In this document: in pieces, positions 4,852-24,657 of the stretch
Layout of the letters: every line of letters begins with the position of its first letter
Numbering within the stretch: the stretch's first letter is position 1
From: an uncultured Erysipelotrichaceae bacterium
GTDB lineage: Bacteria; Bacillota_I; Bacilli_A; Erysipelotrichales; Erysipelotrichaceae
Direction: 5' to 3'
NCBI GenBank assembly: GCA_902786245.1
Contig: CADABS010000010.1
Location: 1 to 49,663, forward strand
Length of the DNA: 49,663 bases
Notes under the pieces: model-generated
Databases searched by the model: none
What the model saw: only the letters and a program-made list of their open reading frames with translations
What the model was told of the DNA's origin: nothing
Made by a program: the position numbers and the translations under genes

Positions 4852-6525
4852 CTACAGTTCGATCGTCTTTTCCGCTGTTCCTGCTTTCATGGAGCAGACG
4901 CTGACAGTTACCTTGTCACCCGGCTGTCCCTTGACGATCCAGTGCATCTTTTTCTTTGCCTTGGCATTGGCAAATGTCGTGATATTGCCATAGAAGGCGC
5001 CGGTAACGGTCTGGCTGTAGCCGGCCAGATGGCCGATCTTCTCCGCTGCTTTTCCGGAGACAGGCTCGCAGCCGCAGATCGAAACTTCGACCGGCTTTGC
5101 GACACCCTGTTCAATCGCAGCTTCGGTCAGATTTGTCGGCAGATAGCCTTTATTGGCAATGACGGCAGTGACGGACCAGATTCCGTCTGCTACCTTTTCC
5201 GCGCACAGTGCATCAACCGTTACTTTCGGCATTGCCTTCATGAAGCGGATATTGAACTTCGTATCATGTTCGCATTCATTGCAGAGCATGTTCTCGGGCG
5301 GATTCTGGGCGGTGAACTTGAAGTTGATGCCGCCGATCTCGACCTTGCCGAAGGAAGGATGATCATATTCCGTCCAGTCCAGATAGTACTGGGGAGCGTT
5401 TTCCTTTACCCATTTCACAATGGCATAATACCGTTTCAGGCTGTCCAGCGGTGTTTCCTTTTCACCCCATTTGTGCGGTACGCCCGCCTTGGTGGAGACA
5501 TCCCAGAATTCCATGGTATATGCCGGAATGCCCTGGGCCTGATAGCACCAGTCATCGAACGCACCGGAATCATAATGATCCTGATCGCTGATGAAGGAGT
5601 CAAAGATATTGATCGGGACATAGTCCAGTTCTTCTTTGCCCATATCGGCGATTGCCTTCATGACCTTGATATCATGGGCAGGTGCTGTCTTCTCCGGTCT
5701 TGTTCCGGGCGGATACAGGATGATGCCGCCGCTGGTATGGCCGATCGCCGCACCGCCGATGTTCGGATGGGACAGAACAAAATCTGCCAGTGCCTTGCAT
5801 TCGGGGTTGCTCAGCGGATAATCGCCTGCACCCGGCTGCCGGCATTCCGGATTCCATCCGGTCGGGAAGTTCCGGTTGAAGTCCAGACCCCAGGAAGCTT
5901 TCTTGATCTTCAGGTTTTCATCGCCGTCGAATTCTTCCAGAATGCCTTCCGGATAGATATCGTAGAATTCGCCTTCGTCTTCATCCGGTCCGCGCAGAAC
6001 CATGACCGAAGGATCGTCAGCGTCTTTCTTCCAGGCACCGTACGGTGTCGGGATCCGCATCATCCGGATGACGCCGTCATCATCGAGGTCTTCGTTTTTG
6101 ACGCCGCCTTCTTCCGGCTTGTAATCGCGGTTGGCGGAACGCAGTAAATACGGTGTGGAAAGATATGTCTCCGCGCCGTCCGGTGTCACCCGGGGGATGA
6201 TATACACCGTCATCGTATCCAGGATCTTTGTGACTTCCGGATCGGTTCCGTAGTTGGTCAGCAGGTAGTCCATGGTATGCATGGCAGCCATGCATGCGGT
6301 GACTTCGCCGGCATGGATATTGCCGTCCAGATACCAGCCCGGCTTGCTCAGGGCATCGCCGGTCTTCTTGTTGGTCAGCGTTACGGCATACTGGTTTCTG
6401 CCCTCTGCCGTCACACAGTTGACTTCGACACTGACAAGGTCCGGACAGTTTGCTTCAAAATATTCGATATTGGATTTGATTTCGTCGTATTTGTAGTAAT
6501 GGTCATAACTGAATGTTGTCTTCAT
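4852..6525 (-). CDS. M14-family zinc carboxypeptidase
   Basis: The 557-residue product carries the peptidase M14 fold in its first 350 residues. Zinc and catalytic landmarks are GNIHAGEVTA (H-x-x-E), PRVTPDGAE, RSANRDYKP, GLDFNRNFP, IGHTSGG (third zinc His) and YTMEFWD (general-base Glu). The last 150 residues form an extra domain rich in beta strands. M14 enzymes remove C-terminal residues or cleave peptidoglycan stem peptides. No signal peptide is seen, so a cytoplasmic role in trimming imported peptides is the simplest reading. It lies 14 nt after the ABC ATPase gene, inside the T-box operon, which links peptide degradation with amino-acid uptake. An AAGGG ribosome site lies about 9 nt before the ATG. 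Confidence 0.9.
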   Translation of the reverse strand: MKTTFSYDHYYKYDEIKSNIEYFEANCPDLVSVEVNCVTAEGRNQYAVTLTNKKTGDALSKPGWYLDGNIHAGEVTACMAAMHTMDYLLTNYGTDPEVTKILDTMTVYIIPRVTPDGAETYLSTPYLLRSANRDYKPEEGGVKNEDLDDDGVIRMMRIPTPYGAWKKDADDPSVMVLRGPDEDEGEFYDIYPEGILEEFDGDENLKIKKASWGLDFNRNFPTGWNPECRQPGAGDYPLSNPECKALADFVLSHPNIGGAAIGHTSGGIILYPPGTRPEKTAPAHDIKVMKAIADMGKEELDYVPINIFDSFISDQDHYDSGAFDDWCYQAQGIPAYTMEFWDVSTKAGVPHKWGEKETPLDSLKRYYAIVKWVKENAPQYYLDWTEYDHPSFGKVEIGGINFKFTAQNPPENMLCNECEHDTKFNIRFMKAMPKVTVDALCAEKVADGIWSVTAVIANKGYLPTNLTEAAIEQGVAKPVEVSICGCEPVSGKAAEKIGHLAGYSQTVTGAFYGNITTFANAKAKKKMHWIVKGQPGDKVTVSVCSMKAGTAEKTIEL

Positions 6526-6539
6526 ATCTGTTTTCCCTT

Positions 6540-7283
6540 CTACAATACCTGCGCCAGGAATTCCTGTGTACGCGCAATCTGCGGATGATCGAAGATTTCC
6601 TCCGGTGTTCCGCTTTCCATGATGATGCCTTCATCGATAAACAGGATCCGGTCGGCAATATTTCTTGCAAATCCCATTTCATGGGTGACGATGACACATG
6701 TCATGCCGGATTCAGCGAGTTTCTGAATAACTTCCAGAACGCCCTTGACCATTTCCGGGTCGAGCGCGGATGTCGGTTCATCAAACAGCATGACATCCGG
6801 ATGCATTGCCATGGCTCTGACGATGGCAAGACGCTGTTTCTGGCCGCCGGAGAGCTTTCTGGGATATTCTTTTGCCTTGTCTTCCAGTCCGACCTGTTTC
6901 AGCAGCTGCATGGCCTCTGCTTCGGCCTGGGCCTTGGGTATTTTCTTTTCCAGGGTCGGGGCCAGGGTGATATTGTCCATGACGGTCAGATGCGGGAATA
7001 CATTGAACTGCTGGAAGACCATGCCGATCTTCTGGCGGTGGGCATCGAGGTCGGTGCTCTTTGCGTCGAGAACATCGCCTTCGAAGATGACCTTTCCGCC
7101 GGTCGGTTCTTCGAGCATGTTCAGACAGCGCAGGAAGGTCGATTTGCCGCCGCCGGAAGGACCGATGATGGCAACGACTTCGCCTTTGTATATTTTCTCA
7201 TTGATTCCCTTGAGAACCTTGAGACAGCCGAAGTTCTTCTGCAGATTGACTGTTTCGATCAGTACTTCATTTGTGTTAGTCAC
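6540..7283 (-). CDS. Polar amino-acid ABC transporter, ATP-binding subunit
   Basis: A 247-residue ABC ATPase of the GlnQ/HisP/ArtP group that powers amino-acid import. Walker A is GPSGGGKST (about residue 42), the Q-loop follows, the signature is LSGGQKQR, Walker B is [17 protein letters not shown], and the switch His is in VTHEMGFA. The length and order are standard. Its start overlaps the end of the permease gene by 8 nt, so the two are translationally coupled. The substrate cannot be read from the ATPase; the upstream T-box suggests a leucine-linked response. Confidence 0.95.
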
Positions 7284-7941
7284 TGACGCTCAGCCTCCTT
7301 TCCAGGATCCGTACCAGCCATGACAGGATCAGGGTCAGTACGAGATAGATACCGGCGATGATGAACAGCGGCTGCCAGACAAGGAACTTGTTGGCCAGCA
7401 GTGTTCTCGTATACATCAGTTCATACAGCATGAACGTTCCGGCCAGAGAGGTTTCCTTGATCATGGCAATGTATTCATTTGCCAGTGCCGGCAGGATGTT
7501 CTTGATGGCCTGCGGCAGGATGATCTTTGTCATCGTATGGGAAGCAGTCATGCCCAGCGACCTGGCCGCTTCGGTCTGTCCTCTGTCGACCGAATTGATG
7601 CCGCCTCTGATGATTTCAGATACATAGGCACTGGAGTTGAGGATCAGCGCGATCAGGACATAGACTTCTTTTGTAATGCTGTTCAGTGCGGGAATTGCGA
7701 TCGGGATGAAGAAATATGCGATATACATCTGCACCAGCAGCGGGGTGCCGCGCAGGACGTTGACATAAATCATGCCGATCGCGTTGAGGATCTTATTCTT
7801 AGACAGATTGATCAGGGCGATGAGAGCACCCAGGATGCTGCCTAATGATACAGCGATGAAGGCATATTTCAGCGTACCGACCGTACCTTTCAGGAAGATC
7901 GGCCAGTACTGCAGAAACACATCTATGATACTCGGGCCCAT
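7276..7941 (-). CDS. Polar amino-acid ABC transporter, permease subunit
   Basis: A 221-residue permease of the HisM/GlnP type (His/Glu/Gln/Arg/opine family). It has about five membrane helices, and the conserved EAA loop reads [22 protein letters not shown]. The standard N-terminal [12 protein letters not shown] and [13 protein letters not shown] blocks are present. It follows the binding-protein gene by 12 nt and overlaps the ATPase gene by 8 nt. As the only permease gene here, it probably acts as a homodimer. Confidence 0.95.
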
Positions 7942-7953
7942 CTCAGCTGCTCC

Positions 7954-8967
7954 TTATTCGCCGTCAAAGACCAGGATCTGATCTTCTACATACATCTGCT
8001 GGAGGGAACCTGCCTGGGCAATGATATGCTTGCCGGCAAAGTCTTCGAGCGTCTTGTACTGGTCTGCCTTGTCAGCCGGAACGATCAGTGTGTGGAAGGA
8101 AACATCATCATCGCCTGTATAGCCGACGGAGAGTTCAAATGCATCTGCTCTGTCTGCCTTCCATCCGAATCCGGAAATGCCGAGGTCGACTTTGCCGGTA
8201 TCAACTGCTGTCAGAACTGCGCTGAAGTCCATTGTTTCGATCTTGAGGCTGACACCGAGGCAGTCAGCGATGTACTTCGCCAGCATCATTTCACAGCCCC
8301 ATACTGTTCCGTTGTCATCGATCCATTCATTGGCCGGATAGTCCGGAGAAGTCGCAATGACCAGAACGCCTTTGTCCAGAACGCTCTTGAGAACGCCGTC
8401 TGCGCTGGAGAGATCCAGTTCCGGCTTCTTGAGATCTGCTGTATCCAGCAGATATGCATATGTGTCATCGATGGCTGTTTTCGGTGTGACATCATAGTCG
8501 CCTACAATTGCAATTGCATCTTCGTCTTCTGTCGCAGACTGGATCTTGGCAATTGCCGTCCACCATGTATAGTAGCTGTCTTTATATCCGTCCGGAACGT
8601 TTCCGCTCGGTGTTGTTGTCGCGGTTTCGATGATCTTGTTGACGGCTTCGATCAGAGATGCTTCGCCTTTTTTCGCAGCTGCGACAGTTCCTTCATAATC
8701 GCCGTACATTGTCAGATCGAAGTTGATGCCGGACATTGCGAACTTGCCGTCGGACTGATCGACATAGTTCTGTGCGGTTGTACCGTCCAGAGCAACTGCG
8801 TCGCACTTGTTTGAATTCAGCGCCAGGATTGCCTGGTCAAGACTGGTAACCAGTTCCAGTTCCGTTGCTTTCTTTGTGTCAGCTGTATCGGCTGTGCCGG
8901 AGGAACATGCGGTCATGCTCAGAGCCATCAGAGCTGCCATTGCGGATTTCATCAGTTTGTTTGTCAT
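7954..8967 (-). CDS. Amino-acid-binding lipoprotein with lobes in permuted order
   Basis: This 337-residue protein is the solute-binding subunit (SBP_bac_3 type) of the importer. Residues 1-21 form a lipoprotein signal ending at Cys21 (LSMTAC). The part that is normally C-terminal (TSLDQAILAL, CDAVALDGTTA, AAAKKGEASLIEAVNKII) comes first, at about 36-113. The part that is normally N-terminal (GVLVIATSPDYPANEW, the DFSAVLTAVDTGKVDLGISG block, then LEDFAGKHIIAQAGSLQQMYVEDQ) comes last, at about 199-330. The break falls at the second hinge crossing, and a linker of about 80 residues joins the lobes. So it reads as a circular permutation or a remnant of a tandem duplication. Both lobes look intact. 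An AAGGAG site precedes the ATG. Expression should depend on the T-box upstream. Confidence 0.88.
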   Translation of the reverse strand: MTNKLMKSAMAALMALSMTACSSGTADTADTKKATELELVTSLDQAILALNSNKCDAVALDGTTAQNYVDQSDGKFAMSGINFDLTMYGDYEGTVAAAKKGEASLIEAVNKIIETATTTPSGNVPDGYKDSYYTWWTAIAKIQSATEDEDAIAIVGDYDVTPKTAIDDTYAYLLDTADLKKPELDLSSADGVLKSVLDKGVLVIATSPDYPANEWIDDNGTVWGCEMMLAKYIADCLGVSLKIETMDFSAVLTAVDTGKVDLGISGFGWKADRADAFELSVGYTGDDDVSFHTLIVPADKADQYKTLEDFAGKHIIAQAGSLQQMYVEDQILVFDGE

Positions 8968-9477: not shown

Positions 9478-12400
9478 TTATTCCTGTTCCTGCGGCTGAT
9501 CCTCTTCTTCCTGTTTTTCATTGCGCATGCCAACGAAGGCAATAACGAATTCAATGATAGCAAGAATGATCATCAGGATTGTCCAGCGGTCGGTATAGAC
9601 CATCGGACTGCGCATGTCTTCGGTGACCAGGAAGATAATGACTGCGACAAATGCGGTTATGACAGATGCCAACGGCAGAATGACTCTGTGCTTCCTGTCT
9701 TCTTCCTCTTCATCCTGGTCTTCCTGTTCCTCGATCTGCGTTCTTTCTTCGCTTTCTTCTTCCTCTTCGGTCTCCTTCTTTCTGCCGATCAGCCATGCAA
9801 AGATGCACAGGATAACGGCAGCGATGATATCAAGGACAACCGTAACAAGATTCACAAGTGCCCAGTACGAAGCTCTTGCCAGAGGAATCTCTGTATCTTC
9901 GATTTCCGTCAGGGTCACTTCACCGGTTTCTTCATCCACATGGACTTCTGCGGCGGTTTCTTTGGAAGGATCGAGCGGTCTGACTTCCGTACCGGGCTGA
10001 ACGGCCGGTACTGCATCTTCAGGAGCAGGTACTGTTTCCTGATCGCCAGGTACAGGTTCACCCGGTTCTTCCGGTACTGTTTCCTGATCGCCAGGTACAG
10101 GTTCACCCGGTTCTTCCGGTACTGTTTCCTGGTCGCCAGGAGCAGGTTCATCCGGTTCTGCCGGCTGTACGGTAAGCGGCCTGTAGATAATATCGATTGT
10201 CAGGTCGTGCGCCGGCATACCCTTTTCATCGGAACGTACAGAATCATAATCACTCAGCATGCCGGTGATTTCAGGTGCCCGTACAGGTCCGAATGCTTCG
10301 CCTGCAGCGTAGCGTCCGGTATACGGCGGTGCCAGTTCATTGCCGTCCTCATCGACGAAGCGTACGGTCAGCAGATATGTATCCGTGATCGTCAGTCTGC
10401 CGTTTTCGACAATGACCGCGAACTGGTCTGTTACATCTGCACCGGTGAGATCGCTTACCATGGCATCACCGCTGATTTCCGTCGTGTAGATACCCGGATC
10501 AATGCCGGCCGCAAATGCGTTCAGGCCGCTGACGCCGTATGACAGTTCATCGATGACAAAGTCTTCTTTTTCAAATCCTTCGACGCTGTGTTCTTCGCCG
10601 TCAAAGAGTACCTGATCGCTGTTTGCCTGCATCTCAATACGGTAGCGGACATTGCGGCTGTAGACATTCAGTGTGCCTGCTGCTGTCTGGATGATATAGT
10701 TCGCCGCATCTGTATCGGGATTCAGTCTATATGTAAATGTATTTGCGGATGTACCCGGCAGAATGCGTACAGCACCGGTATGATATACCGCGCCTTCACC
10801 GTCTGCCCAGCCGTCGCCGCTGACTGTGATTTCCGCTGCCTGCAGCGGTGTGCCGCTGTATTCAGCCTCCGCAGATGCGCTGGTCAGGATCACGGTGCGC
10901 GGTCTGACTGTCAGGGTTCCGTCTGTGATATGGACAGCGAATTCATCGCTGACATCATTTCCTTCGCTGTCGATGACCGATGCGATACCGCTGAATGTTA
11001 CCGGATAGACACCGGCATTTCTGCCGCTTCCGGATGCGCTGAGACCTCTGATGGTATAGGTGTTTCCGTCAACCGTGAATCTGCTGTTGATCAGACCGCT
11101 GAGCGTATGCGTGCTGCCGTCATAGAGATACTCGCCGCTTCTGGCTGTTACTGTAATTTCGTATTTTACCGTACGCGGAACCACATTGATTTCTCCGAAT
11201 ACGGTTGTGATGTCGTAGTTGTTTTCGTCTGTTCCCTCTTTGAGTGTATAGGTGAATGCGTTGGGGCTGATGCCGCTCAGGCTTCTGCCGCCGGAGAATG
11301 CATAGTCTGCACCTTCATTCTCCGCCCATCCGTCACCGCTGACTTCCACTGTTTCATTGACTGCCTCACGGCCGTTGTATACCGTGCGCACCGATCCGGA
11401 TGTCAGGATGACACTCCGTCTGCGGATATCCATGCGTCCGCTTTCCGTACGGATCAGGAACTGGGCTGTCACATCGTTGCCCTGGCTGTCATATACAGCC
11501 GGTGTTCCGGTGACATTCACCGCATATGTTCCTGCGTCTTTTGCGGAAGCAGATGCCTGCAGACCTCTCAGCGTATAATCTACGCCGTCCGCTTTGATAT
11601 GCAGTACGCCTTCGCTGTCGGCCGGACCGTATACGGTCGAAACGCCTTCTGCGGTATGGGTGCTGCCGTCATATACCCAGCTGCCATTGGCTGCCTTAAC
11701 GGCAATTTCATAGCGGGCCGTATCAGGCCGGCTGTATACTGTCAGGCTGCCGAATTCACTGGCGATATTGTAGTCCTCTGCCCGGGTGCCTTCATTCAGC
11801 GTATATGTGAAGACATTCTCGGAAATGCCCGGCAGGGTCCGTGAACCGCTGACGGAACAGGTGACACCGTCGCCTCTGACGAATCCGTCGCCGCCGATGA
11901 CGATTTCACTGTCGTAGACCGGCATGCCGTTATAGAACGCAGCCGCATCGCGGGACCGCAGCGTGACATTTCTCTTTTCCACTGTCATCGTTCCCGGTAC
12001 CGTCACGATCATGAATTCAGACGTGACATCAATTCCATTGGAATCCCGGACAACCGGTGTTCCGGTGATCAGAACCGGATAGCTGCCGGCATGCACTGCC
12101 GAGGCAAACGCGCTCATGCCGCTGACGGTGTATGTCTCGGAACCGATGCCGAAGCGGGTTGACTTCAGCTGGTTGAGCGTATGTACCGTTCCGTCATAGG
12201 TAAAGGTACCGCCGATAGATTCAAGGCTGATGATATATTTTGCGTCGCGGCTGTGTACCTGCAGTACACCGTCGCTTTCCGTGATGTCGTAGTTGGAAGG
12301 ATCCGTACCTTCATTGAATGTATAGGTGAACGGGTTGGCGCTGATGCCCGGCGCTGTCTGGGTGCCGGTCACCTCGTAGCTGATTCCTTCTTCTGCCGCG

Positions 12401-15400
12401 AATCCGTCGCCGCCGATGATCACTTCCGGCGCTGCCAGCGGACTTCCGTCATACTGCTTTTCCGCGGATGCGGAAACCAGTGAAACAGAACGTCTGAGAA
12501 TCTGCAGCACACCCGGTTCCAGATGAATGACAAATTCCTCTGTCACATCATTGCCTTCTTCATCCAGGATGACAGGCGTTCCGGTGATCGCTGCCGTATA
12601 GGTACCGGCATTGACTGCTTCTGCGGATGCTGTGACATTTGCAATCGTATAGGTATGGCCATTGATGACTGCCGTATCTTCGCACAGACCGCTGACGCTG
12701 TGGGCTGTTCCGTCATAGACTGCTGTGCCGCCGTTGGAGCGGATTGCAATTTCATACTTCGACGTACGTCCGTGTACGGAAAGTACACCATTGCGGACGC
12801 GGAAGATATAGTCGGAAGGATCGGTTCCTTCATTGAGCGTATATGTAAATGTGTTGTCGCTGCTGCCGGTGCGGGTCTGCGTTCCGGTTACGGTGAAGGA
12901 TGCGCCTTCGTTTTCCGCGAATCCGTCGCCGCCGACCGTTACCGTATCCATCGTCAGCGGATCGCCGTCATATTCTTTGTCTGCCGATCCGGACATCAGC
13001 GTGACATCTCTGGCTTTGACTTTCAGGATGCCGGTGACCGTGTTGACGGTAAACTGCTCTGTCACGTCATTGCCGTTTTCATCCTTCACAGCAGGAATGC
13101 CGGTGATCGTGTTGAAATAGGTTCCGGCATGAACTGCAGATGCAGCTGCGGATACGCCTTCAACCGTATAGGTATGGCCTCCGGCTGTGAATTCCGTTGT
13201 TTCAAATCCGGAAACGGAATGTTCACTGCCGTCGCAGAGTACTTCATCCCCATTGGATTTCAGAGTGATCGCATAAGCTTCGGAACGCTTTGAAACATCC
13301 AGTGTTCCATAGACCACAGTGACATCATAATCTGCCGCCGAAGCTGCTCCGGTAAATCTGTAATCGAAGATGTTCTCGCTGGAGCCCGGCAGGATTCTTT
13401 CGCCGCTGACCGTATAGACAGCGCCTTCGCCTTCCGCAAATCCGTCGCCTCCGGCCGTTACTTCCGGTGCCCGCAGCGGATTGCCGTCATATTCTGCCGA
13501 TGCCGAAGCACTGGTCAGGATCAGTTTTCTCTTCGCAATGCGCAGACTGCCGTTTTCACAATGCACCGCAAACTGCGCAGTGACATCGTTTCCTTCACTG
13601 TCTCTGACGGCAGGTGTACCGGTGATGGCGACCGGATAGACACCGGCAGATCTGCCGCTGCCCTGTGCGTTTACGCCTTCAACGGTATATGTGTTTCCAT
13701 CCACCGTGAATTCCGTTGTTTCAAAGCCGGATACCGTATGGACGGTTCCGTCATAGAGAGCACTGCCGCCGGAAGCACGGAGCGTAATTTCATACTTCGC
13801 GCTTCTGTCAATGATTTCCAGACTGCCGTATTCCGTGCGGATATCATAGTTTTCCGCATTTGTATTGGCATACAGCTGATAGGTAAATGTATTCGTGCCT
13901 GTGCCGGCTGCTGTCCGGGTGCCGCTGACGGTATAGACAGCGCCTTCATTTTCAGCCCATCCGTCGCCTCCCACTGTTACAGATGTGTTCCGCAGCGGGA
14001 TGCCGTCATATTCTTTCCGGGCTGAACCCGATACCAGAAGCACGGTGCGTGGCAGTACTGTCAGACTGCCGCTTTCATAATGAATGACAAACTGGGAAGT
14101 GACATCATTGCCCTGATCATCCCTGACCACCGGTGTGCCGGTGATCTTTGCCGCATAGGTGCCGGCACCGGTTCCCTTCGCTTCGGAAACGATGCCCTCG
14201 ACCGTATAGCGGCTGCCGTTGACAGTGAATTCCTCCGTTTCAAATCCGGATACTGTCTTTTCGCTGCCGTCATACATACTGGTCTCCCTGATGCCGCGCA
14301 TTGTCAGTTCGTACTGCTCATCGCGGCTGCTGACACTGAGCGTGCCGAAGACCGTACGGATATTGTAGTTGCCGGCCTTTGTGCCTTCATTCAGTACATA
14401 GCTGAACGCATTGTCGGCAGTTCCCGGGACGGTCTGGCTGCCGCTGACCGTATAGACAGCGCCTTCGCCTTCTGCCCATCCGTCGCCGCTGACCGCAATG
14501 CCGTCATCCGTCAGTGCCGTTCCGTCATACTGTCTGAACGCGGTTGCGGATGTCAGTACGACCGTCCGCGGTTCAACAATCATCCGGCCGCTGCGGATAT
14601 GCACACGGAACTGTTCCGTCACATCATTGCCCTGCGCGTCTCTGACAACCGGTGTACCCTCAACGAATACATCATAGTTTCCGGCATCGCGGGCTTTTCC
14701 TGCCGCCTGCAGTCCTTCGATATGATATGTATTTCCTTCGATCTCGAATGTATCTTCTTCGATTCCGTCCACTGCATGTTCGCTGCCGTCATACAGGAAT
14801 GTGCCGCTGTTTGCGCTGACGGTGATCTCATACAGCGATGCCCGCGGCGCTACCTGCAGTATTCCTGCATTTGCGGTGACTGCGTAGTCAGACGCCAGCG
14901 TATTGTTTCTGAATGTATAGGCAAACGCATTCTGACTGCTGCCGGGGATGCGCTGTACGCCGCTGAATGTATAGTCGGCGCCTTCGTTTTCTGCCCATCC
15001 GTCGCCGCTGACAATGATTTCACTGTTCCGCAGATCCGTTCCGTCATATTCCTTCATGGCAGAGCCGGATGTCAGTACCAGCTGTCTCTGTCCGACCGAC
15101 AGAACACCGTTTTCACAGCGGACGCTGAACTGATCGGTAACATCGTTTCCTTCGCTGTCGCGGATGACAGGCGTGCCTTCAATGATATTTTCATAGTTTC
15201 CGGCATGGACTGCGGATACAGAAGCCTGGATACCTTCCACTGTATACATCTGGGTGCCGGCTCTGAACTGTACTGTCTCAAAGCCGCTGACAGATTTCTT
15301 CGTACCGTCATACAGATATGTTCCGCTGCTGGAACGGACCGTTACCGGATACAGATTCTGGCGGCCGGTGACACTGAGCGTGCCGAACACAGTGCTGATT

Positions 15401-18400
15401 TCATAATCCGCCGGATCGGTATTGCCGTTCAGTGTATAGCTGAAGCTGTTGGGGCTGCTGCCGGCAATGGTCTGGCTGCCGCTGACTGTATAGACAGCGC
15501 CTTCGCCTTCCGCAAAGCCATCGCCGCTGACGGTGACAGAATCATTTTTCAATGCTGTTCCGTCATATTCCTTTGACGCCGATGCACTGGTCAGTACAGC
15601 CTTGCGGCGGCTGACCGTCAGTCTGCCGTTTTCCGTATCGACCATAAACTGCTCTGTGACATCGTTGCCGTTTTCGTCTTCCACCTTCGGGGTTCCTGTA
15701 ATGATATTGTCATAGGTTCCCGCATGCACAGCGGAAACAGAAGCTTCCAGGCCCGTTACTCTGTAGCGGCTGCCGTTGACAGTGAATTCGGTCGTTTCAA
15801 ATCCGGATACTGTCTTTTCACTGCCGTCGTACAGGAATGAACCGCTGTTGGCGCTGACCTGCAGATGCACTGCCTCGGCACGGGAGTCAACCTGCAGGAT
15901 GCCCGGAACCGTCGTGATCTGATAATTGCCTGCTTCGGTATTGCTGTTGAGTGTATACGTAAATGCATTGGCAGAAGAACCAGGGATGGTCTGCGAGCCG
16001 CTGACCGTATAGACAGCGCCTTCGCCTTCCGCAAAGCCATCGCCGCCGACAGTTACAGAATCATCTTTCAGTGCCGTTCCGTCATATTCTCTGGAGGCTG
16101 ATGCGGATGTCAGGATGACCTTTCTCTTTTCGATCACCATTGTTCCGCTTTCTGTCCGCAGACTGAACTGCAGCGTAACGTCATTGCCGTTTTCATCAAT
16201 GACCCGCGGCTTGCCGGTGATGGCATTGACATAGGTGCCCGCACCGCGTCCCTGTACCGATGCTTCCGCATCTCTGACAGAGAACTGTCTGCCGTTGACG
16301 GTATAGGTATCCCGGCGCAGACCGGAAACGCTGTGTTCGCTGCCGTCATAGACAAATGTTCCTCCGGCTGCCTGCAGGGTCAGCTGCAGCGGCTCTGCCC
16401 GGTCTGTCACCGTCAGAGTACCTGCATCGGTACGGATATCATAGTTTTCCGCCTTTGTATTTTCATGAAGTGCATAGGTAAATGTATTGGATACGGTACC
16501 CGGTATTGTACGGGTTCCTTCCACTCTGTAATCAGCGCCCTGACCGGCAGCGAATCCGTCGCCGCTGACCGTGACCGTTTCATCCCGCAGCGGCAGGCCG
16601 TCGTATTCTTTCGCGGCGGTCGCAGATGTCAGGATGACCGTGCGGCGGTTGACCGTCAGGCTGCCCGGTTCGATTTCCACAGCGAACTGATCTGTCACAT
16701 CGGCACCGCTGCTGTCGGTTACCGTCGGGGTTCCTTCGATTGCCGTATCATAGCTGCCCGCATCCGTTCCGCTGACAGAAGCCGCAACGCCGCTGACTTT
16801 GTACTGGGCACCGTTGACGGTGAATGTATCCGTTTCAAAGCCGCTGACCGACTTTTCTGTGCCGTCATACATGAATTCGCCGCTGCGTGCCTGCATGTGC
16901 AGAGGATAGGCCTCTGTTCTGCTGCTGATGCGCAGAGTGCCGGGCTGAACTTCGATATTGTAGTCGGCGGCAGAAGTGTTTTCATTGAGCGTATAGGTAA
17001 AGCTGTTCGGTGCGGAGCCGGGAAGCGTAATGGAACCGCTCACCGCAAAGGACGCACCTTCTCCTTCCGCAAAGCCTTCCGCTGCCACTTCGTCATTCTG
17101 CAGCGGGAGTCCGTCGTATTCCTTCTCATCGGATGCCGATGTCAGGGTGACATTGCGGGGAGCGATCTTCAGCTGGCCGCTGATACAGCTGACAGCAAAT
17201 TCGGCAGTGACGTCATTGCCGTTTTCATCCAGAACCTGCGGTGTGCCGGAAATGACATTGTCATAGGTTCCCGCATGTACTGCCGAGACAGATGCGCTGA
17301 CACCGGCAACCGTATAGTTCTTTCCGTTGACCGTGAATTCAAGCGTATCAAAACCCGACACCGTCTGTTCGCTGCCATCGTATACCGTCTCGCTGCTCTT
17401 TGCCCGCAGGGTAATGCCAAAGGCTGCCTGGCGGCCGGTAACCGTCAGTCTGCCGGTATGCACTGTTACTGCGTAATTATCTTTTTCGGTATTTTCGTTG
17501 AATGTATAGGTGAACACATTGTCTCCGCTGCCGGTGACCGTCTGGGTGCCGGTAACGGTGTAGACCGCTCCTTCACCCGGCGCAAATCCGTCTCCGCCGG
17601 CTGTAACGTCAGCGGAAACCAGCGGTGTGCCGTCATATTCCTTCACTGCGGAAGAAGACGTCAGAACAAGCGAACGTCTGCGGACCGTCAGGGTTCCGCT
17701 GCGCAGCGAGATATCAAAGGCATCGGTCACATCGTTGCCTGCAGAATCGCGGATCACCGGCGTACCTGTGATATCCGCACTGTAGGTTCCGGCATTGCGG
17801 CCGGTCGCAGAAGCACTGATGCCTTCCACCGTATAGCGGTTGTTTCCGATCGTGATTTCCATCGGTTCAATGCCGGATACGGTATGTTCACTGCCGTCAT
17901 ACATATATTCGCCGGACGCTGCCTGCAGCACGACGGGCCATCCCTTTTCACGGCGGCCCACCGTTAACATGCCGGTCTGTCTGGTGATGTCATAGTCGTT
18001 GGCATAGGTACCCGGATGCAGGGTATAGCTGAATGTATTCGGACTCGATCCGACAACCGTCTGGCTGCCTGTCACAACGTAATCCGCACCTTCATTCGCT
18101 GCGAAACCATCGCCGCTGATGCGGATATGATCCTCGGTCAGCGGTGTTCCGTCGTATTCGCGGGAAACCGTGGACGAAGTCATGACCACGCTGCGGCGGC
18201 GGATCGTCAGAGTGCCGTTTTCTCTGGCAACGCTGAACTGTTCCGTCACATCATTGCCTTCGCTGTCGAATACGGATGCTTCGCCGGTGATTCTGGCTGT
18301 ATATACACCGGCCCGGATCTGTTCTTCATTGACCTCGAGACCTTTGATGTAATAGACATGTCCGTCTGCTCCGGCCGTCAGTCCTTTGAGCGTATGAACG

Positions 18401-21400
18401 CCATGCGGCTGTCCGTCATAGAGAACATCGGTGCTGACAGCACTGACCACGGCCGGATACAGAGCGTCATGGGAACGGTTCATGACCGTCAGACTGCCGT
18501 ATTCTGCCGTAATCAGATAGTTATCCGGATCCGTACCCGGATTCAGTGTGTATTCAAATGTATTGCGGACCGTGCCCGGCAGGGTTCTTTCCGCGGTCAG
18601 CCGTACCGATACGCCTTCGTTCTGTACGAATGAGCCGTTTGTTACCGATACGCCGCTGTCCGGATAATTGCCGGTATGCAGAGGACTGCCGTCATAGACT
18701 TTGGACGCATTCATCGATGTAAGCGTCACCCGGCGCGGTTCAATGACCATTGTACCGGGTACTGTATGTACACTGAACTGATCGGATACGTCATTGCCTT
18801 CTTCATCCAGAACGGCAGGTGTACCCTGGACCGTACTGGTATATGTACCGGCATCTGCTGCACTTGCGGATGCCTGCAGTCCATGCACGGTAAAGGTCTT
18901 CGAACTGATCGTGAATGTATCCTGGATCAGTCCGGATACCCGCTGTACTTTGCCGTTATAGACATAATTTCCTCCGGCAGCCTGTACCGTGATTTCATAC
19001 AGCGCACTGCGCGATGTAACGGTCAGTGTACCTTCGAAAGCGGAAATGCTGTAGTTGTCTTTATCTGTATTTTCATTCAGCGACCAGGCAAACGTATTGG
19101 CGGAGCTGCCGGTAATGGTGCGGCTTCCGCTCACCGTATACACGGCGCCTTCGTCTTTGGCCCAGCCGTCTCCGCTGACGGTAACGGTGCTGTCGCTCAG
19201 CGGCAGTCCGTCATATTCCTTTTCCGCCGACGCGGATGTCAGAATGACAGAGCGCTTCGTGATCTTCAGTTCGCCGCTGTACGTATTGATTCTGAACTGC
19301 GATGTGACATCGTTGCCCTTTGCGTCCGTAACCGTCGGTGTTCCCGTGATTGTATTGGGATATACACCGGCATTGCGTCCGGTCGCCGCAGCGGAAAGAC
19401 CGCTCAGCGTATATGTGTTTCCTTCAATCGTGAAGGAAGATGCGCTGATGCCGGAAACCGTATGCGTCTGTCCGTCATAGAGAATTTCTTTTCCTGCCGA
19501 ACGGACAGTGATTTCATATTTGTTTTCCCGGTCAATGATTTCCAGACGTCCGTATACGCAGCCGATGGCATAGTTCGATGCCCTGGTGTTTTCCTGGAGC
19601 ACATAGGTGAATATGTTATCGCTCGAGCCGATGCCGCTCTGGACACCGGTAACGCTGTAATCCGCACCTTCGCCTTCGGCAAATCCTTCGCCGCCGACCA
19701 GGATATCGCTGTTTCTGGCCTCGCTGCCGTCATACTGCATGCGTACCGATCCGGATGTAAGAATGACCTGGCGGGGACGGATGACAAGTGTTCCCGGCTC
19801 TTTTTCGATCCGGAACTGTCCCGTCACATCGTTGCCTTCGCTGTCGCGGATCACCGCTTCGCCGGTGACTTCATTGATCATCCGGCCAGCATCTGTCATC
19901 TCGGCATGGCTGCTGAGGCCTTCGATCCTGTATGTATATCCGTTGTATGCAAATGTATCGCTGACAATACCGGAAACGGATACCGGACTGCCGGTATAGA
20001 CCGCTTCTGCGGAAGAAGCCTGTACCGTCACCGTGTATTTTTCCGCATCGGAACGGCTCAGCACCTGCAGGGTGCCGAACTGTGTTTCAATATCATAGTT
20101 GCCAGCCAGTGTTCCTTCTGCCGCGATCCATGTGAATGTATTGGGAGATCTGCCCGGCAGCGTCTGGGAACCGGCACTGCGGATAATGACGCCTTCGCCT
20201 TCCGCAAAGCTGCCTTCCGCGACCGATACGCCGCTGTTTTCCCAGGCGGCTGTTGTCAGCGGACCGCCGTCATACATCTTGCCTGCATCGGCAGAGCGCA
20301 GCACGATATGGCGGGCGGCAACCGTCAGGACGCCGTCTTCTCTTTCAACCGCAAACTGGGCACTGACATCGTTTCCTTCCGCATCGGTAACGACCGCTGT
20401 TCCCTGGACCGGGATCCGGTATGTGCCGGCATTGGTCTTCGTCAGCGCAGCGCTCATTCCTGCAACCCGGTACGATGCACCGTTGATCGTGAAGACAGTC
20501 TGTTCCAGACCTTCTGCTTTCTGCGGAGCGCCGCTGTAGACCAGCGTATGATCCGCCGCTTTGACAGTGATGGCATATTTTGTTTCACGGTCGGTGACAT
20601 TCAGCGTTCCGAAAACGGTCTCCACGGTGTAATCAGCTGCGTTTGTATCTTCATGGAATGCATAGGTAAATGTATTCCGGCTGGCACCGGCTGCGGTCTG
20701 CGTGCCTGTCACAGTGAAGTCCATGCCTTCCGAACCGGCAAATCCATCGCCGCTGACATAGATATCTTTGTTCACCAGCGGTTGGCCGTCATATTCCTTT
20801 GTCTGGCTGGCACTGGTCAGAATGATCCGGCGCGGTGTCACAGACAGTGTTCCGGACGCAACTGCTGTTTCATAATTCGGGTTTTCCGCTCTGACCGTAT
20901 AGGTCAGGCTTCCGGCATGCAGAAGCTGCGGTGCTTCTTCTGTCCATGTTTCCCCATCTGCTGTATAGGTGAGTTTTGTGCCGGCCGGCATTTCTGCGCT
21001 GACACCGCCGCTGAGCGGCTGGCCGCTGTACATTCTCTGCACGGTAATGGCATTCAGGCTGAGCACTGCAGGGACAATGGTCAGTTCACCGTCCGTCATG
21101 GTTACATGATAGTTGCCCTGTTCTTCCTCTGCCTGTACACGGACCGGATAGGTTCCGGCATCTTCGCCTTCATCGCGGACCAGTTCATAGGCAACGGTAT
21201 CGCTGCCGAAAAGACCCTGTACTTCTGCTTCAAACACAGGATCGGCGCTGCCGTATGTTTTCTGTGCGTTCTTTGCCCTGACAGTCACTTCTGCCGGCAG
21301 TACTTTCAGCACAGCATCCGCATAGACAGTTTCATAATTATCGTTGAGAGCCCGTACACGGACAGTATCTTCTCCTGCATCTCTGCGGGATGGAGCAGTT

Positions 21401-24400
21401 CTGCTCCAGGTTGAACCGCCGTCGGTACTGTATTCAATGACCGTTCCGTCTTTGACCGTTGCGGCTGCCCGTACACGGTGCAGCGTTCCGTCATATGTGC
21501 CTTCCCAGCCATCTGCCTGCAGCGCCATTTCACCGCTCTTTGCGATTGTGAAAACCGCTTCTTTTACGGTGACATCGTAGTTTTCCTGCACTGCCTCGGC
21601 ATTGACGTGAATCGTATATTCCCCGGCATCTTCGCCCGGATCGCGCTGCAGTTCATATTCCAGCGAATCGCCTGAAAGCAGGCCGCTGAAAGACACCCGC
21701 AGCTGCGGATCTTCATCACCATAGTTCTTGGCCATGTTCATCGCTGCGATTTCCGCCGGTATCCGGGTGATCTCCAGAACACCCGCTTCTGCGGCAGTGA
21801 TGATATAGCGTCTGGAAAGGTCTGTCTTTCCGACGGTTCCTTCTGCAAATTCAACCGGATAGGTTCCGGCATTCTTTTCGCTGCGGGATGCGCTGATATT
21901 TTCAAATTCCGCATCCGGAACGGAACATGTAAATCCGCTCACGGTCTGCTGTGCGCCATTGTAGGGCACATGCAGTTCATCAGCCTGCACAGTGACATTC
22001 TTATAGTAGTCAAAACGGATTTCCATACCCGGGCTGCTGATTTCCATTTCCTTGCGGGATACGGAAGGATCCACCGGTGTATAGCCTTCGATTTCAAGCA
22101 GATCGCCGCTGCCGGTTTCAAAGTACCGTACCGAAGCGGTCCGTGAAGGAGCGACCGGAATATCCGTGCCGTTAAGGTAGTATCCGACGGTATAGCTGAC
22201 AAGACGCTTGGTGTAGTATACCCGGATCACATTGTCTGCTTCATTGGCGCTCACCGTCAGAGAAGCAGGTGTTTTTTCACTGAAGGTAAAGCCGGTTCTG
22301 GGCTTGTCCGTATAGGATGTAATAACTGTTCCGATTTCCACCGGTCCGAGTACATCTGTCATTGCCGCATCGGGGATGCCGTCATAGATATATTCAACCC
22401 GGTAGCGGGCATTGACCGGCACATACCGGCCGTAGAATGTCGTATTGGCATTCAGTTCTCCCGTGAAGGAAGCAGCTGCGGTACATGCGGCGTCTTCATA
22501 CCATCCGTCAAAGGCATAGGTAATGCCGTTGACCGTCTTTGACGACGGAACAGCAGAAGAAGACGGCTTTTTGATCGAAGAACGGGCTGTACCGGAAAGG
22601 AATCTCTGTGAATAATCTGTCAGAGACTCATAGGCGGATCCGCCTGCGTTCATGACCGCAAAATTGGCGCTGACAAAGTCTTTTTCATTCAGGACACAGG
22701 TATAGTCGAGATGGAAAGACAGAGCGCTGGCTGTGGGATTGTAATTGTTATAACCGGAATTGGCACCGCTGGCGACGATCGTACGGAACGGCTGCACGGT
22801 GTAGTATCCCTGCATTCCGCTTTCCGCCGATCCCTCCGGTGCGTATTTATATGTCTGGCCGGCATAGGTAATATCCGGATACAGTGCTTTGACTGTTTCC
22901 CCTGTCACATACTCGGATACAGATTTTCCTTTGCCCAGAGAGGACGGACTCTTCGTGCCGTAGATCTTCGTCACGCCGAGACCGAACCACCGCGTATTCG
23001 CATCGCTTGTCTGGATATTGGCATCTGCACCGGGAATCAGGGCATAGTGATACAGATTGTATCCGGTGAATGTCACGGTGACCTGTGCCTGATCGCTGTA
23101 TACATTTCCATAGAGCTCATCTTCTTCCGGCGATACAGAAGCCGTAATGACTGCCGTACCCTGGCCGCGGGCGGTAACGATACCGTTTTCAACGGTTACC
23201 ACAGAGGTATCAGAAGATGTCCAGATAATCGTATTTTCAGCGCTGATGGCTGTCAGTGACGCTCTCAGCTGCGCTGTCGCACCGATTTCTCCGAGTGATA
23301 CAGAGCCCGGTGTGACAGATATTGCCGGTTCCTGTACCGGATCAGTAATGATGATTGTATATGTTCCGACGGTTTCGTACGATGAAAACCAGCCGCTCCT
23401 GTTGAGAACCTGCAGCGTGATTTCTGCTGTGCCGGCTCTGCGGGCAGTAACGGTTCCGCTGGTCGAAACCGAAGCGGTATTCGAATTCGAACTGGACCAT
23501 TTGCATGTCTTACCCGTATATGCCGCAGGAACAGGGATCGTAAACGACTCCCCGGTCGTCATTGTATAGGTGCTGCTTTCCGGCGTGGAAGCAGTCGAAG
23601 CAACCGCATACTGCGAAAAGTGATCCGTCGTAAAACCGACCGCATCGCCGTTCTGGCTCTGCCCCATTTTCTGCGCTTCTCCGCTCTCCTCAATATGGTA
23701 TACGGATGTTTCTTCGCCGGCATTTACGCCGCTGAGTCCGATTGACACAAAGACCGGGAAAGAAGGTTCGATTTCCGCTCCGGTTGCGTCATGGATCGTA
23801 ATATCATAAACGACCAGGTCTACCAGTTCTCTGCCCGGTTCGATCATGTTTTCCACTGTGCTCTGCGCATGCGCCGATGATACGACAACAGCGTTCACAT
23901 ATGTCCCCTCCGGGAATGCGCCGCCTTCTGCCTGTACATATACATAGGCGCCGTCGCTGGCAGTTGTATACAGTTCCGTTACCGTCAGTGCCGGCTTCTC
24001 CTCTGCCGGTTCAGTCGGTGTTTCTGCAGGTGTTTCCGGTTCAGTCGGTGTTTCTGCAGGAGTCTCCGGTTCGGAAGGTGTTACTGCAGGTATTTCCGGT
24101 TCCGCCGGTGTTTCTGTGGGAGTTTCCGGTTCGGACGGTGTCTCTGCGGGAGTCTCCGGTTCCGTCGGTGTTACTGCAGGGGTCTCCGGTTCCGCCGGTG
24201 TTACTGCGGGTGTTTCCGGTTCAGTCGGTGTCTCTGCAGGGGTCTCCGGTTCAGTCGGTGTCTCTTCCGGCGTCTCCGGTTCAGTCGGTGTCTCCGCAGG
24301 CGTTTCCGGTTCAGTCGGTGTCTCTTCCGGTGTATCCGTCTCGGAAGGTGTTTCTTCCGGCGTTTCCGTCTCAGACGGCGTCTCTTCCGGTTCATCGACC

Positions 24401-24657
24401 GTTATTTCTTCCGGTGTTTCTTCAACCGGCTGTTCACTGGTTTCAGTGACATCTTCAGCCGGTATTTCCAGTTCTACGGTTTCCTGATCAGCTGCCTGTT
24501 CTTCCGGCATTTCCGCATATACTTCCGTATCATCGGGGAGCTCTGTAGCTCTCAGCATACGGTCTGTGCCGCCGAAAAGGCTGTAAGTGATGACCAGCAC
24601 TGCGGCCAGCATTCCCAGCAGGATCCTCTTCATAAGTCTGCGAACACTTTTCTTCAT
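9478..24657 (-). CDS. Giant 5059-residue repeat surface protein (MBG-like repeats, membrane-anchored)
   Basis: Parts in order: basic N-terminus and hydrophobic signal/anchor (about 10-30); a Pro/Thr/Glu stalk of 10-residue repeats (about 84-220); a beta-rich domain (222-356); two Big_2 Ig-like domains (about 360-535); a unique domain (540-700); an InlB-type B-repeat (about 705-740) and MucBP-like stretches to 860; several MBG/YDG-like modules (865-1275); twenty two-part units averaging 174 residues (about 1275-4760); a MucBP-like domain (VRFVDEDGNEL) to about 4830; a Pro/Glu repeat; the phrase EIPLARASYWALVNL; and three membrane helices split by acidic tails. Such proteins act as adhesins or wall stalks; that role is inferred. 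There is no LPXTG motif, so the C-terminal helices probably anchor it. The start overlaps the previous stop (ATGA). The frame is open throughout, with no sign of decay. Confidence 0.93.
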   Translation of the reverse strand: MKKSVRRLMKRILLGMLAAVLVITYSLFGGTDRMLRATELPDDTEVYAEMPEEQAADQETVELEIPAEDVTETSEQPVEETPEEITVDEPEETPSETETPEETPSETDTPEETPTEPETPAETPTEPETPEETPTEPETPAETPTEPETPAVTPAEPETPAVTPTEPETPAETPSEPETPTETPAEPEIPAVTPSEPETPAETPTEPETPAETPTEPAEEKPALTVTELYTTASDGAYVYVQAEGGAFPEGTYVNAVVVSSAHAQSTVENMIEPGRELVDLVVYDITIHDATGAEIEPSFPVFVSIGLSGVNAGEETSVYHIEESGEAQKMGQSQNGDAVGFTTDHFSQYAVASTASTPESSTYTMTTGESFTIPVPAAYTGKTCKWSSSNSNTASVSTSGTVTARRAGTAEITLQVLNRSGWFSSYETVGTYTIIITDPVQEPAISVTPGSVSLGEIGATAQLRASLTAISAENTIIWTSSDTSVVTVENGIVTARGQGTAVITASVSPEEDELYGNVYSDQAQVTVTFTGYNLYHYALIPGADANIQTSDANTRWFGLGVTKIYGTKSPSSLGKGKSVSEYVTGETVKALYPDITYAGQTYKYAPEGSAESGMQGYYTVQPFRTIVASGANSGYNNYNPTASALSFHLDYTCVLNEKDFVSANFAVMNAGGSAYESLTDYSQRFLSGTARSSIKKPSSSAVPSSKTVNGITYAFDGWYEDAACTAAASFTGELNANTTFYGRYVPVNARYRVEYIYDGIPDAAMTDVLGPVEIGTVITSYTDKPRTGFTFSEKTPASLTVSANEADNVIRVYYTKRLVSYTVGYYLNGTDIPVAPSRTASVRYFETGSGDLLEIEGYTPVDPSVSRKEMEISSPGMEIRFDYYKNVTVQADELHVPYNGAQQTVSGFTCSVPDAEFENISASRSEKNAGTYPVEFAEGTVGKTDLSRRYIITAAEAGVLEITRIPAEIAAMNMAKNYGDEDPQLRVSFSGLLSGDSLEYELQRDPGEDAGEYTIHVNAEAVQENYDVTVKEAVFTIAKSGEMALQADGWEGTYDGTLHRVRAAATVKDGTVIEYSTDGGSTWSRTAPSRRDAGEDTVRVRALNDNYETVYADAVLKVLPAEVTVRAKNAQKTYGSADPVFEAEVQGLFGSDTVAYELVRDEGEDAGTYPVRVQAEEEQGNYHVTMTDGELTIVPAVLSLNAITVQRMYSGQPLSGGVSAEMPAGTKLTYTADGETWTEEAPQLLHAGSLTYTVRAENPNYETAVASGTLSVTPRRIILTSASQTKEYDGQPLVNKDIYVSGDGFAGSEGMDFTVTGTQTAAGASRNTFTYAFHEDTNAADYTVETVFGTLNVTDRETKYAITVKAADHTLVYSGAPQKAEGLEQTVFTINGASYRVAGMSAALTKTNAGTYRIPVQGTAVVTDAEGNDVSAQFAVEREDGVLTVAARHIVLRSADAGKMYDGGPLTTAAWENSGVSVAEGSFAEGEGVIIRSAGSQTLPGRSPNTFTWIAAEGTLAGNYDIETQFGTLQVLSRSDAEKYTVTVQASSAEAVYTGSPVSVSGIVSDTFAYNGYTYRIEGLSSHAEMTDAGRMINEVTGEAVIRDSEGNDVTGQFRIEKEPGTLVIRPRQVILTSGSVRMQYDGSEARNSDILVGGEGFAEGEGADYSVTGVQSGIGSSDNIFTYVLQENTRASNYAIGCVYGRLEIIDRENKYEITVRSAGKEILYDGQTHTVSGISASSFTIEGNTYTLSGLSAAATGRNAGVYPNTITGTPTVTDAKGNDVTSQFRINTYSGELKITKRSVILTSASAEKEYDGLPLSDSTVTVSGDGWAKDEGAVYTVSGSRTITGSSANTFAWSLNENTDKDNYSISAFEGTLTVTSRSALYEITVQAAGGNYVYNGKVQRVSGLIQDTFTISSKTFTVHGLQASASAADAGTYTSTVQGTPAVLDEEGNDVSDQFSVHTVPGTMVIEPRRVTLTSMNASKVYDGSPLHTGNYPDSGVSVTNGSFVQNEGVSVRLTAERTLPGTVRNTFEYTLNPGTDPDNYLITAEYGSLTVMNRSHDALYPAVVSAVSTDVLYDGQPHGVHTLKGLTAGADGHVYYIKGLEVNEEQIRAGVYTARITGEASVFDSEGNDVTEQFSVARENGTLTIRRRSVVMTSSTVSREYDGTPLTEDHIRISGDGFAANEGADYVVTGSQTVVGSSPNTFSYTLHPGTYANDYDITRQTGMLTVGRREKGWPVVLQAASGEYMYDGSEHTVSGIEPMEITIGNNRYTVEGISASATGRNAGTYSADITGTPVIRDSAGNDVTDAFDISLRSGTLTVRRRSLVLTSSSAVKEYDGTPLVSADVTAGGDGFAPGEGAVYTVTGTQTVTGSGDNVFTYTFNENTEKDNYAVTVHTGRLTVTGRQAAFGITLRAKSSETVYDGSEQTVSGFDTLEFTVNGKNYTVAGVSASVSAVHAGTYDNVISGTPQVLDENGNDVTAEFAVSCISGQLKIAPRNVTLTSASDEKEYDGLPLQNDEVAAEGFAEGEGASFAVSGSITLPGSAPNSFTYTLNENTSAADYNIEVQPGTLRISSRTEAYPLHMQARSGEFMYDGTEKSVSGFETDTFTVNGAQYKVSGVAASVSGTDAGSYDTAIEGTPTVTDSSGADVTDQFAVEIEPGSLTVNRRTVILTSATAAKEYDGLPLRDETVTVSGDGFAAGQGADYRVEGTRTIPGTVSNTFTYALHENTKAENYDIRTDAGTLTVTDRAEPLQLTLQAAGGTFVYDGSEHSVSGLRRDTYTVNGRQFSVRDAEASVQGRGAGTYVNAITGKPRVIDENGNDVTLQFSLRTESGTMVIEKRKVILTSASASREYDGTALKDDSVTVGGDGFAEGEGAVYTVSGSQTIPGSSANAFTYTLNSNTEAGNYQITTVPGILQVDSRAEAVHLQVSANSGSFLYDGSEKTVSGFETTEFTVNGSRYRVTGLEASVSAVHAGTYDNIITGTPKVEDENGNDVTEQFMVDTENGRLTVSRRKAVLTSASASKEYDGTALKNDSVTVSGDGFAEGEGAVYTVSGSQTIAGSSPNSFSYTLNGNTDPADYEISTVFGTLSVTGRQNLYPVTVRSSSGTYLYDGTKKSVSGFETVQFRAGTQMYTVEGIQASVSAVHAGNYENIIEGTPVIRDSEGNDVTDQFSVRCENGVLSVGQRQLVLTSGSAMKEYDGTDLRNSEIIVSGDGWAENEGADYTFSGVQRIPGSSQNAFAYTFRNNTLASDYAVTANAGILQVAPRASLYEITVSANSGTFLYDGSEHAVDGIEEDTFEIEGNTYHIEGLQAAGKARDAGNYDVFVEGTPVVRDAQGNDVTEQFRVHIRSGRMIVEPRTVVLTSATAFRQYDGTALTDDGIAVSGDGWAEGEGAVYTVSGSQTVPGTADNAFSYVLNEGTKAGNYNIRTVFGTLSVSSRDEQYELTMRGIRETSMYDGSEKTVSGFETEEFTVNGSRYTVEGIVSEAKGTGAGTYAAKITGTPVVRDDQGNDVTSQFVIHYESGSLTVLPRTVLLVSGSARKEYDGIPLRNTSVTVGGDGWAENEGAVYTVSGTRTAAGTGTNTFTYQLYANTNAENYDIRTEYGSLEIIDRSAKYEITLRASGGSALYDGTVHTVSGFETTEFTVDGNTYTVEGVNAQGSGRSAGVYPVAITGTPAVRDSEGNDVTAQFAVHCENGSLRIAKRKLILTSASASAEYDGNPLRAPEVTAGGDGFAEGEGAVYTVSGERILPGSSENIFDYRFTGAASAADYDVTVVYGTLDVSKRSEAYAITLKSNGDEVLCDGSEHSVSGFETTEFTAGGHTYTVEGVSAAASAVHAGTYFNTITGIPAVKDENGNDVTEQFTVNTVTGILKVKARDVTLMSGSADKEYDGDPLTMDTVTVGGDGFAENEGASFTVTGTQTRTGSSDNTFTYTLNEGTDPSDYIFRVRNGVLSVHGRTSKYEIAIRSNGGTAVYDGTAHSVSGLCEDTAVINGHTYTIANVTASAEAVNAGTYTAAITGTPVILDEEGNDVTEEFVIHLEPGVLQILRRSVSLVSASAEKQYDGSPLAAPEVIIGGDGFAAEEGISYEVTGTQTAPGISANPFTYTFNEGTDPSNYDITESDGVLQVHSRDAKYIISLESIGGTFTYDGTVHTLNQLKSTRFGIGSETYTVSGMSAFASAVHAGSYPVLITGTPVVRDSNGIDVTSEFMIVTVPGTMTVEKRNVTLRSRDAAAFYNGMPVYDSEIVIGGDGFVRGDGVTCSVSGSRTLPGISENVFTYTLNEGTRAEDYNIASEFGSLTVYSRPDTARYEIAVKAANGSWVYDGSTHTAEGVSTVYGPADSEGVLHIKADGVDYTLRGLQASASAKDAGTYAVNVTGTPAVYDSQGNDVTAQFLIRTESGRMDIRRRSVILTSGSVRTVYNGREAVNETVEVSGDGWAENEGADYAFSGGRSLSGISPNAFTYTLKEGTDENNYDITTVFGEINVVPRTVKYEITVTARSGEYLYDGSTHTLSGLINSRFTVDGNTYTIRGLSASGSGRNAGVYPVTFSGIASVIDSEGNDVSDEFAVHITDGTLTVRPRTVILTSASAEAEYSGTPLQAAEITVSGDGWADGEGAVYHTGAVRILPGTSANTFTYRLNPDTDAANYIIQTAAGTLNVYSRNVRYRIEMQANSDQVLFDGEEHSVEGFEKEDFVIDELSYGVSGLNAFAAGIDPGIYTTEISGDAMVSDLTGADVTDQFAVIVENGRLTITDTYLLTVRFVDEDGNELAPPYTGRYAAGEAFGPVRAPEITGMLSDYDSVRSDEKGMPAHDLTIDIIYRPLTVQPAEPDEPAPGDQETVPEEPGEPVPGDQETVPEEPGEPVPGDQETVPAPEDAVPAVQPGTEVRPLDPSKETAAEVHVDEETGEVTLTEIEDTEIPLARASYWALVNLVTVVLDIIAAVILCIFAWLIGRKKETEEEEESEERTQIEEQEDQDEEEEDRKHRVILPLASVITAFVAVIIFLVTEDMRSPMVYTDRWTILMIILAIIEFVIAFVGMRNEKQEEEDQPQEQE
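10028..10162 (-). repeat. Three 45-bp direct repeats in the giant gene
   Basis: Three adjacent 45-bp units (10028-10072, 10073-10117, 10118-10162) encode the repeat EPGEPVPGDQETVPE. The first two are nearly identical and the third differs at several bases. Such short, near-exact repeats can change number by slippage. They form a proline-rich spacer before the membrane anchor. Confidence 0.85.
10378..20834 (-). repeat. Twenty tandem A+B repeat units of about 520 bp
   Basis: Each unit averages about 174 residues. Part A follows the pattern LTSASxxKEYDGxPL, a central (S/G)GDGFAEGEGAxYTVSGSQT, then FTYTLNxxTxxxNY. Part B follows YEITVxAxSGxxxYDGSxHTVSGF, then YTVEG, AGTY and ITGTPxVxDxxGNDVTxQF. 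The YDG-like core of part A occurs near 20788, 20267, 19730, 19210, 18690, 18151, 17632, 17114, 16600, 16080, 15562, 15042, 14525, 14010, 13490, 12965, 12448, 11930, 11371 and 10846. Protein identity between units is moderate and the DNA has diverged, so the array is old rather than a recent expansion. The pattern resembles MBG/YDG immunoglobulin-like modules. Confidence 0.9.
24008..24395 (-). repeat. 30-bp repeats encoding a Pro/Thr/Glu stalk
   Basis: About thirteen imperfect 30-bp units encode TEPETPAETP and close variants. The segment follows the signal region and would form an extended, acidic, wall-spanning or spacer stalk. Some neighbouring units are almost identical in DNA, so copy number may vary between strains. 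Confidence 0.85.

Follow-up and report, generated by a model that had tools for sequence, protein, structure and literature searches.

The locus examined here raises the question of whether an amino acid-binding lipoprotein can have had its parts exchanged along the chain and still be a working member of its transporter. The ORF concerned lies at positions 7954–8967 (minus strand) of the window, the whole 49,663-nt stretch of Erysipelotrichaceae DNA analysed. It begins with ATG and encodes 337 aa, including a signal peptide and lipobox (SMTAC-SSG) evident in the sequence itself (MTNKLMKSAMAALMALSMTAC; 8905–8967, minus strand), with Cys21 as the predicted lipidated residue. Judged by its ORF, Pfam, profile, and BLASTP matches, the product is clearly homologous to the family-3 substrate-binding proteins (SBPs; SBP_bac_3, PF00497), and is a circularly permuted variant of this family rather than an ordinary member.

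Order of the segments

A short spacer follows Cys21 and leads into the segment that ends ordinary family-3 proteins (TELELVTSLDQAILAL...CDAVALDG...); a joining region connects this to the segment with which those proteins begin. The old C-terminal part (residues 35–148; 8524–8865, minus strand) matches residues 188–295 of L041, an unpermuted relative used as the reference for segment comparison, and residues 139–237 of the solved structure 4H5F. It comprises the second part of lobe 2, the return hinge strand, and the C-terminal helices that pack on lobe 1, and carries the conserved Asp of CDAVALDG. The old N-terminal part (residues 167–335; 7963–8469, minus strand), now last, reads YAYLLDTADLKKPELDL...VLVIATSPDYP...KADRADAFELS...IIAQAGSLQQMYVEDQ and matches L041 20–188 and 4H5F 5–141. 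It is made up of an extension (TYAYLLDTADLKKPELDL), lobe 1, the first hinge strand, and the first strand-helix of lobe 2, and carries the conserved Arg of KADRADAFELS. Between the two, in the gap left by the BLASTP matches, is a new joining sequence with no counterpart in unpermuted relatives (residues 149–166; 8470–8523, minus strand).

The similarity in swapped order is far beyond chance. In BLASTP comparisons, residues 147–315 of the mature protein match L041 20–188 at 68% identity (2e-85) and residues 10–128 match L041 188–295 at 58% identity (3e-38), the two matches being in swapped order and abutting at the same residue. An HMM of the permuted family aligned with 4H5F in the same manner, profile positions 159–296 corresponding to chain residues 5–141 and 6–108 to 139–237. 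Against PF00497, the native protein scores 63.9 bits (curated cut-off 26.4) over profile positions 1–84 only; restoring the normal order extends the coverage to 1–117, compared with 1–122 for L041. The old C-terminal part alone, too short or too diverged for that model, had no match in Pfam. Proteins unpermuted in silico align with naturally unpermuted ones without a break at the join, the loop differing by a few residues at most. The canonical, collinear N-to-C order of SBP_bac_3 is not the one found: both segments are homologous to a single relative, swapped and abutting, with no part of the core missing, as in a circular permutation. The order originally described from the sequence (C-part, linker, N-part) is borne out by the BLASTP, HMM, and Pfam comparisons, and the alternative of an unpermuted, collinear alignment over the whole length is not what the L041 and 4H5F matches gave.

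Position of the cut and the join

The details of the rearrangement differ from the original prediction, which had two lobes in swapped order and an N-part ending right at the hinge. In a model of L041, with lobe boundaries assigned as is established for binding proteins of type II, residues 145–150 form the first hinge strand and 167–187 a lobe-2 strand-helix; then come the cut at ~190, the next lobe-2 strand at 194–198, and the return hinge strand at 252–257. The N-part therefore runs ~40 residues past the hinge, through the first lobe-2 strand and helix (HIIAQAGSLQQMYVEDQ), and the cut falls in a short loop before the strand TELELV, inside lobe 2. The lobes have not been exchanged whole; it is lobe 2, not lobe 1, that becomes the discontinuous domain, split between the two chain ends, and the lipid anchor shifts from lobe 1 to lobe 2. 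The linker, put earlier at about 80 residues, is present as a region, but consists mostly of the former C-terminal helix and N-terminal extension, with only ~18 residues that are new. When the joining sequences of the window and of the consensus were compared with the unpermuted loci by tblastn, only chance-level matches were obtained for these 18 residues (best E 0.11).

Predicted fold

AlphaFold2, supplied with 35 orthologues, gave a bilobed model of the permuted protein (pLDDT 84.5, pTM 0.73). The model of unpermuted L041 scored higher (pLDDT 87.5, pTM 0.84), and two of the five models of the permuted protein reached only ~60 pLDDT. The prediction is a confident one of a single bilobed protein, and not one in which the halves fail to form one bilobed site, the outcome named beforehand as speaking against a permutation.

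Structure comparisons that depend on sequence order gave the half-matches expected of a permutant. The permuted model aligned with 6ggv over its second half only (172–315, Z 11.2) and with 4h5f over 142 residues (Z 9.7), arginine-binding proteins being matched by the second half alone, whereas the unpermuted L041 model aligned with 4h5f over 235 residues (Z 27.8). With OpuAC the permuted model was collinear across both halves (11–292; 209–212 residues, Z 8.9, rmsd ~5.4). The permuted family may thus have the same topology as OpuAC, apparently reached independently, but because the Z-score is middling the likeness is suggestive only.

Distribution and origin

In metagenome-assembled genomes, 37 permuted loci were found, two of them truncated, nearly all from ruminant gut and mostly labelled Erysipelotrichaceae or Solobacterium. 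Among 272 genomes of the window's own family, the permuted form is full length in 32 and truncated in two, within three genera only. Among 315 genomes of the order, no permuted copies turned up outside the family, nor did any in even samples of 395 class and 392 phylum genomes; this wider comparison was limited to matches at E <= 1e-60, overlaps the family, and excludes little. In the window's genus the permuted form is present in some species, and a close orthologue without the permutation in others, sister species among them; among the matches listed, no genome has both.

The loci with titles shown are all from metagenome-assembled genomes, where faulty assembly or binning might be suspected, or a dead gene that has been rearranged. 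Either has a negligible probability here: the same order, a point on which the original prediction invited comparison of orthologues, recurs in 34 genomes of three genera, assembled in several projects from different ruminant hosts, and the reading frames, signal peptides, and flanks are intact. Both parts are, from codon comparisons, under purifying selection, which argues against a dead gene; dN/dS is mostly 0.02–0.25 in each, with values of 0.3 in two near-identical pairs that have few changes.

In a maximum likelihood tree of 73 proteins (36 permuted, 37 unpermuted), the permuted ones form one clade (bootstrap/SH-aLRT 100/99) nested among the unpermuted, and a single change of order was obtained in 100% of 200 bootstrap trees. 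Because of this nesting, the permuted form most likely arose once. In a tree of the permeases, permuted and unpermuted operons are largely separate.

In an ancestor of this group of Erysipelotrichaceae, an ordinary family-3 binding protein would have been permuted once, without leaving its operon. The ~18 extra residues would have joined its former C- and N-termini, which both lie on lobe 1; new termini would have been opened in a lobe-2 loop, with the new N-terminus now behind the signal peptide and lipobox. Two routes would be simplest: in one, the gene is duplicated and fused and then sheds its first N-part and last C-part; in the other, a further C-part enters behind the signal peptide and the gene is truncated afterwards. 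None of the loci retrieved holds an intermediate. At L108 (2974–5314, plus strand), in the same genus, two unpermuted family-3 SBP genes lie in tandem ahead of a single permease gene; a permutation could begin from such an arrangement.

By the textbook route, circular permutation follows from a duplication that then loses sequence at each end, and a tandem ancestor may once have existed. The gene could then be a deletion product of a tandem SBP-SBP protein whose relatives still have two whole fused domains, and the adjacent, separate SBP genes at some loci (L108, L111) might be taken in its favor. This is very improbable. No tandem fusion of whole domains was seen at the related loci examined, and no gene of any retrieved locus has an extra copy of either part; all orthologues share one clean order, their nearest relatives are single unpermuted domains, and where a second SBP lies adjacent, it falls in a divergent clade that is not sister to the permuted one. 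The shared order, the lack of a tandem double domain, and the confident bilobed prediction together support the original proposal of a true circular permutation that would still fold.

Operon and probable role in transport

The gene is followed on the same strand by those for an amino-acid ABC importer permease with a single subunit, probably homodimeric (7276–7941; BPD_transp_1 and HEQRo_perm_3TM), a GlnQ-like amino-acid ABC importer ATPase conserved across loci (6540–7283), and an M14 zinc carboxypeptidase (4852–6525; PF00246, E 5e-41), the last conserved gene of the operon and found downstream in most loci. This SBP-permease-ATPase-M14 operon is common to permuted and unpermuted loci, and places the permuted gene beside a polar amino-acid permease and ATPase, as is usual for SBP_bac_3. 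The M14 carboxypeptidase, which lacks an obvious signal peptide, also closes the operon in relatives with the labels Lachnospiraceae and Oscillospiraceae. Its role may be to trim C-terminal residues off peptides that are either imported or internal. Upstream of the operon, at 9478–24657 (minus strand), is an ORF for a repetitive surface protein of 5059 aa that carries Big_2 and MBG_2 repeats and, at its C-terminal end, a membrane region.

At two loci (L003/L112 and L008/L111), the permuted SBP and a divergent unpermuted one are arranged around one shared permease/ATPase pair, which the two genes flank or precede (L111 3626–5603 and L112 3811–7258, both minus strand). The arrangement suggests that both SBPs deliver to the same permease.

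With another SBP available to the transporter at these loci, and the tether point moved, the permuted protein might fold and yet not deliver ligand to the permease, acting instead as a scavenger, a sensor, or a partner of another protein. This reading is very improbable, as in most genomes, the window's included, the permuted gene is the sole SBP next to the permease and ATPase, and the window's genome encodes just one other PF00497 protein, at a different locus. The protein is, with a high degree of confidence, a working natural circular permutant: the SBP lipoprotein of a type-I amino-acid ABC importer, arisen once and in place, predicted to fold as a bilobed protein, and probably binding L-arginine.

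Putative regulation and ligand

A T-box leader (RF00230; 9095–9303, minus strand) precedes the operon, with a cmscan score of 114.9 bits (gathering threshold 93) and a specifier region, GAAG-CGC-A, read as arginine. Such leaders are found upstream of most of the relatives' genes, permuted and unpermuted. Aligned, the specifier regions of both forms read GAA-N-CGC-A, with N varying, or GAA-CGU/CGC. The specifier is therefore probably arginine (CGC/CGU), in a frame that assumes free variation of the base between GAA and CGC. Ala, Thr, and Pro specifiers were rejected; the first base after GAA varies among orthologues and CGC is constant. Two specifier types, GAA-CGU-G and GAA-N-CGC-A, are present among the orthologous genes, one set being L001, L016, L020, L028, L034, and L036; the pattern would fit an exchange of leaders inside the clade.

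Most of the closest solved structures are of arginine binders (TmArgBP, an ancestral ArgBP, LAO, STM4351, and 4H5F). In family-3 binding proteins, an Arg and an Asp hold the amino-acid backbone, as established for LAO/HisJ. With orthologues of the permuted protein aligned from the corresponding lipobox Cys, the R of KADR and the D of ALDG are invariant in 35 of them, at positions aligned to 4H5F. Because the T-box specifier reads as arginine and the nearest structures are mostly arginine-binding, uptake of arginine is the favored guess, with L-arginine the most likely substrate and its capture for import under arginine shortage the most likely function.

In the working protein proposed here, each lobe would fold as before, lobe 1 from one continuous piece and lobe 2 from both chain ends, with the two hinge crossings kept. 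The conserved Arg, which has come to lie in the final segment, and the conserved Asp, now in the opening one, would hold the carboxylate and amino groups of the ligand. The loaded protein, tethered by lobe 2 rather than lobe 1, would dock on the homodimeric permease as usual, and uncharged tRNA-Arg would turn the operon on through the T-box.

Comparison with other binding proteins

The canonical family-3 proteins (type II, cluster F), such as 4H5F of S. pneumoniae, T. maritima ArgBP, and LAO, have the same two segments, ligand Arg and Asp positions, and operon type, but in the protein described here the chain is cut in lobe 2, the old termini are joined on lobe 1, and the anchor is on lobe 2. 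A natural permutant is known among type I proteins: TpMglB-2 (Tp0684) is a circularly permuted lipoprotein that binds glucose and closes on it (PMC4990184). It too is a natural, conserved permutation in an anchored ABC-importer binding protein, but differs in its type I fold, sugar ligand, cut in the N lobe, and extra hinge crossing, and is only 13–26% identical to EcMglB (PMC4990184), compared with the 58–68% found here to unpermuted kin. The glycine betaine-binding protein OpuAC is related by circular permutation to other betaine- and molybdate-binding proteins (PMC2395249). It has the type II fold predicted for the permuted protein, and it is collinear over both halves of the model; it differs in family and ligand, at ~12% identity, and the divergence is ancient.

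No report of a natural permuted PF00497 (family 3) protein was found in the literature searched, coverage of which leaves out most subscription journals. The case may well be the first natural permutation reported in family-3 binding proteins, and on balance probably is: a recent, single event, in place, that would give the OpuAC topology and put the anchor on lobe 2 instead of lobe 1 while leaving transport intact, with unpermuted kin ~60–70% identical in the same genus. Permuted binding proteins as such were already known, and the interest here is in the recency of the event and its close bracketing by unpermuted kin.

Many natural circular permutants are too diverged from their unpermuted kin for easy study of the event. 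Here the permuted and unpermuted orthologues (58–68% identity) have an operon, a riboswitch, and probably a ligand in common and are found in sister species, making a clean natural experiment on how a permutation becomes fixed, on the role of the anchor-bearing lobe in docking on a homodimeric permease, and on changes in hinge motion and affinity. The protein also adds a further case of natural permutation in binding proteins, and supplies a ready cut site for amino-acid sensors that are made from permuted ones. Since close relatives still have unpermuted sister forms in this operon, the case is unusually recent among natural ones, and suits the study of such rewiring and of its survival.
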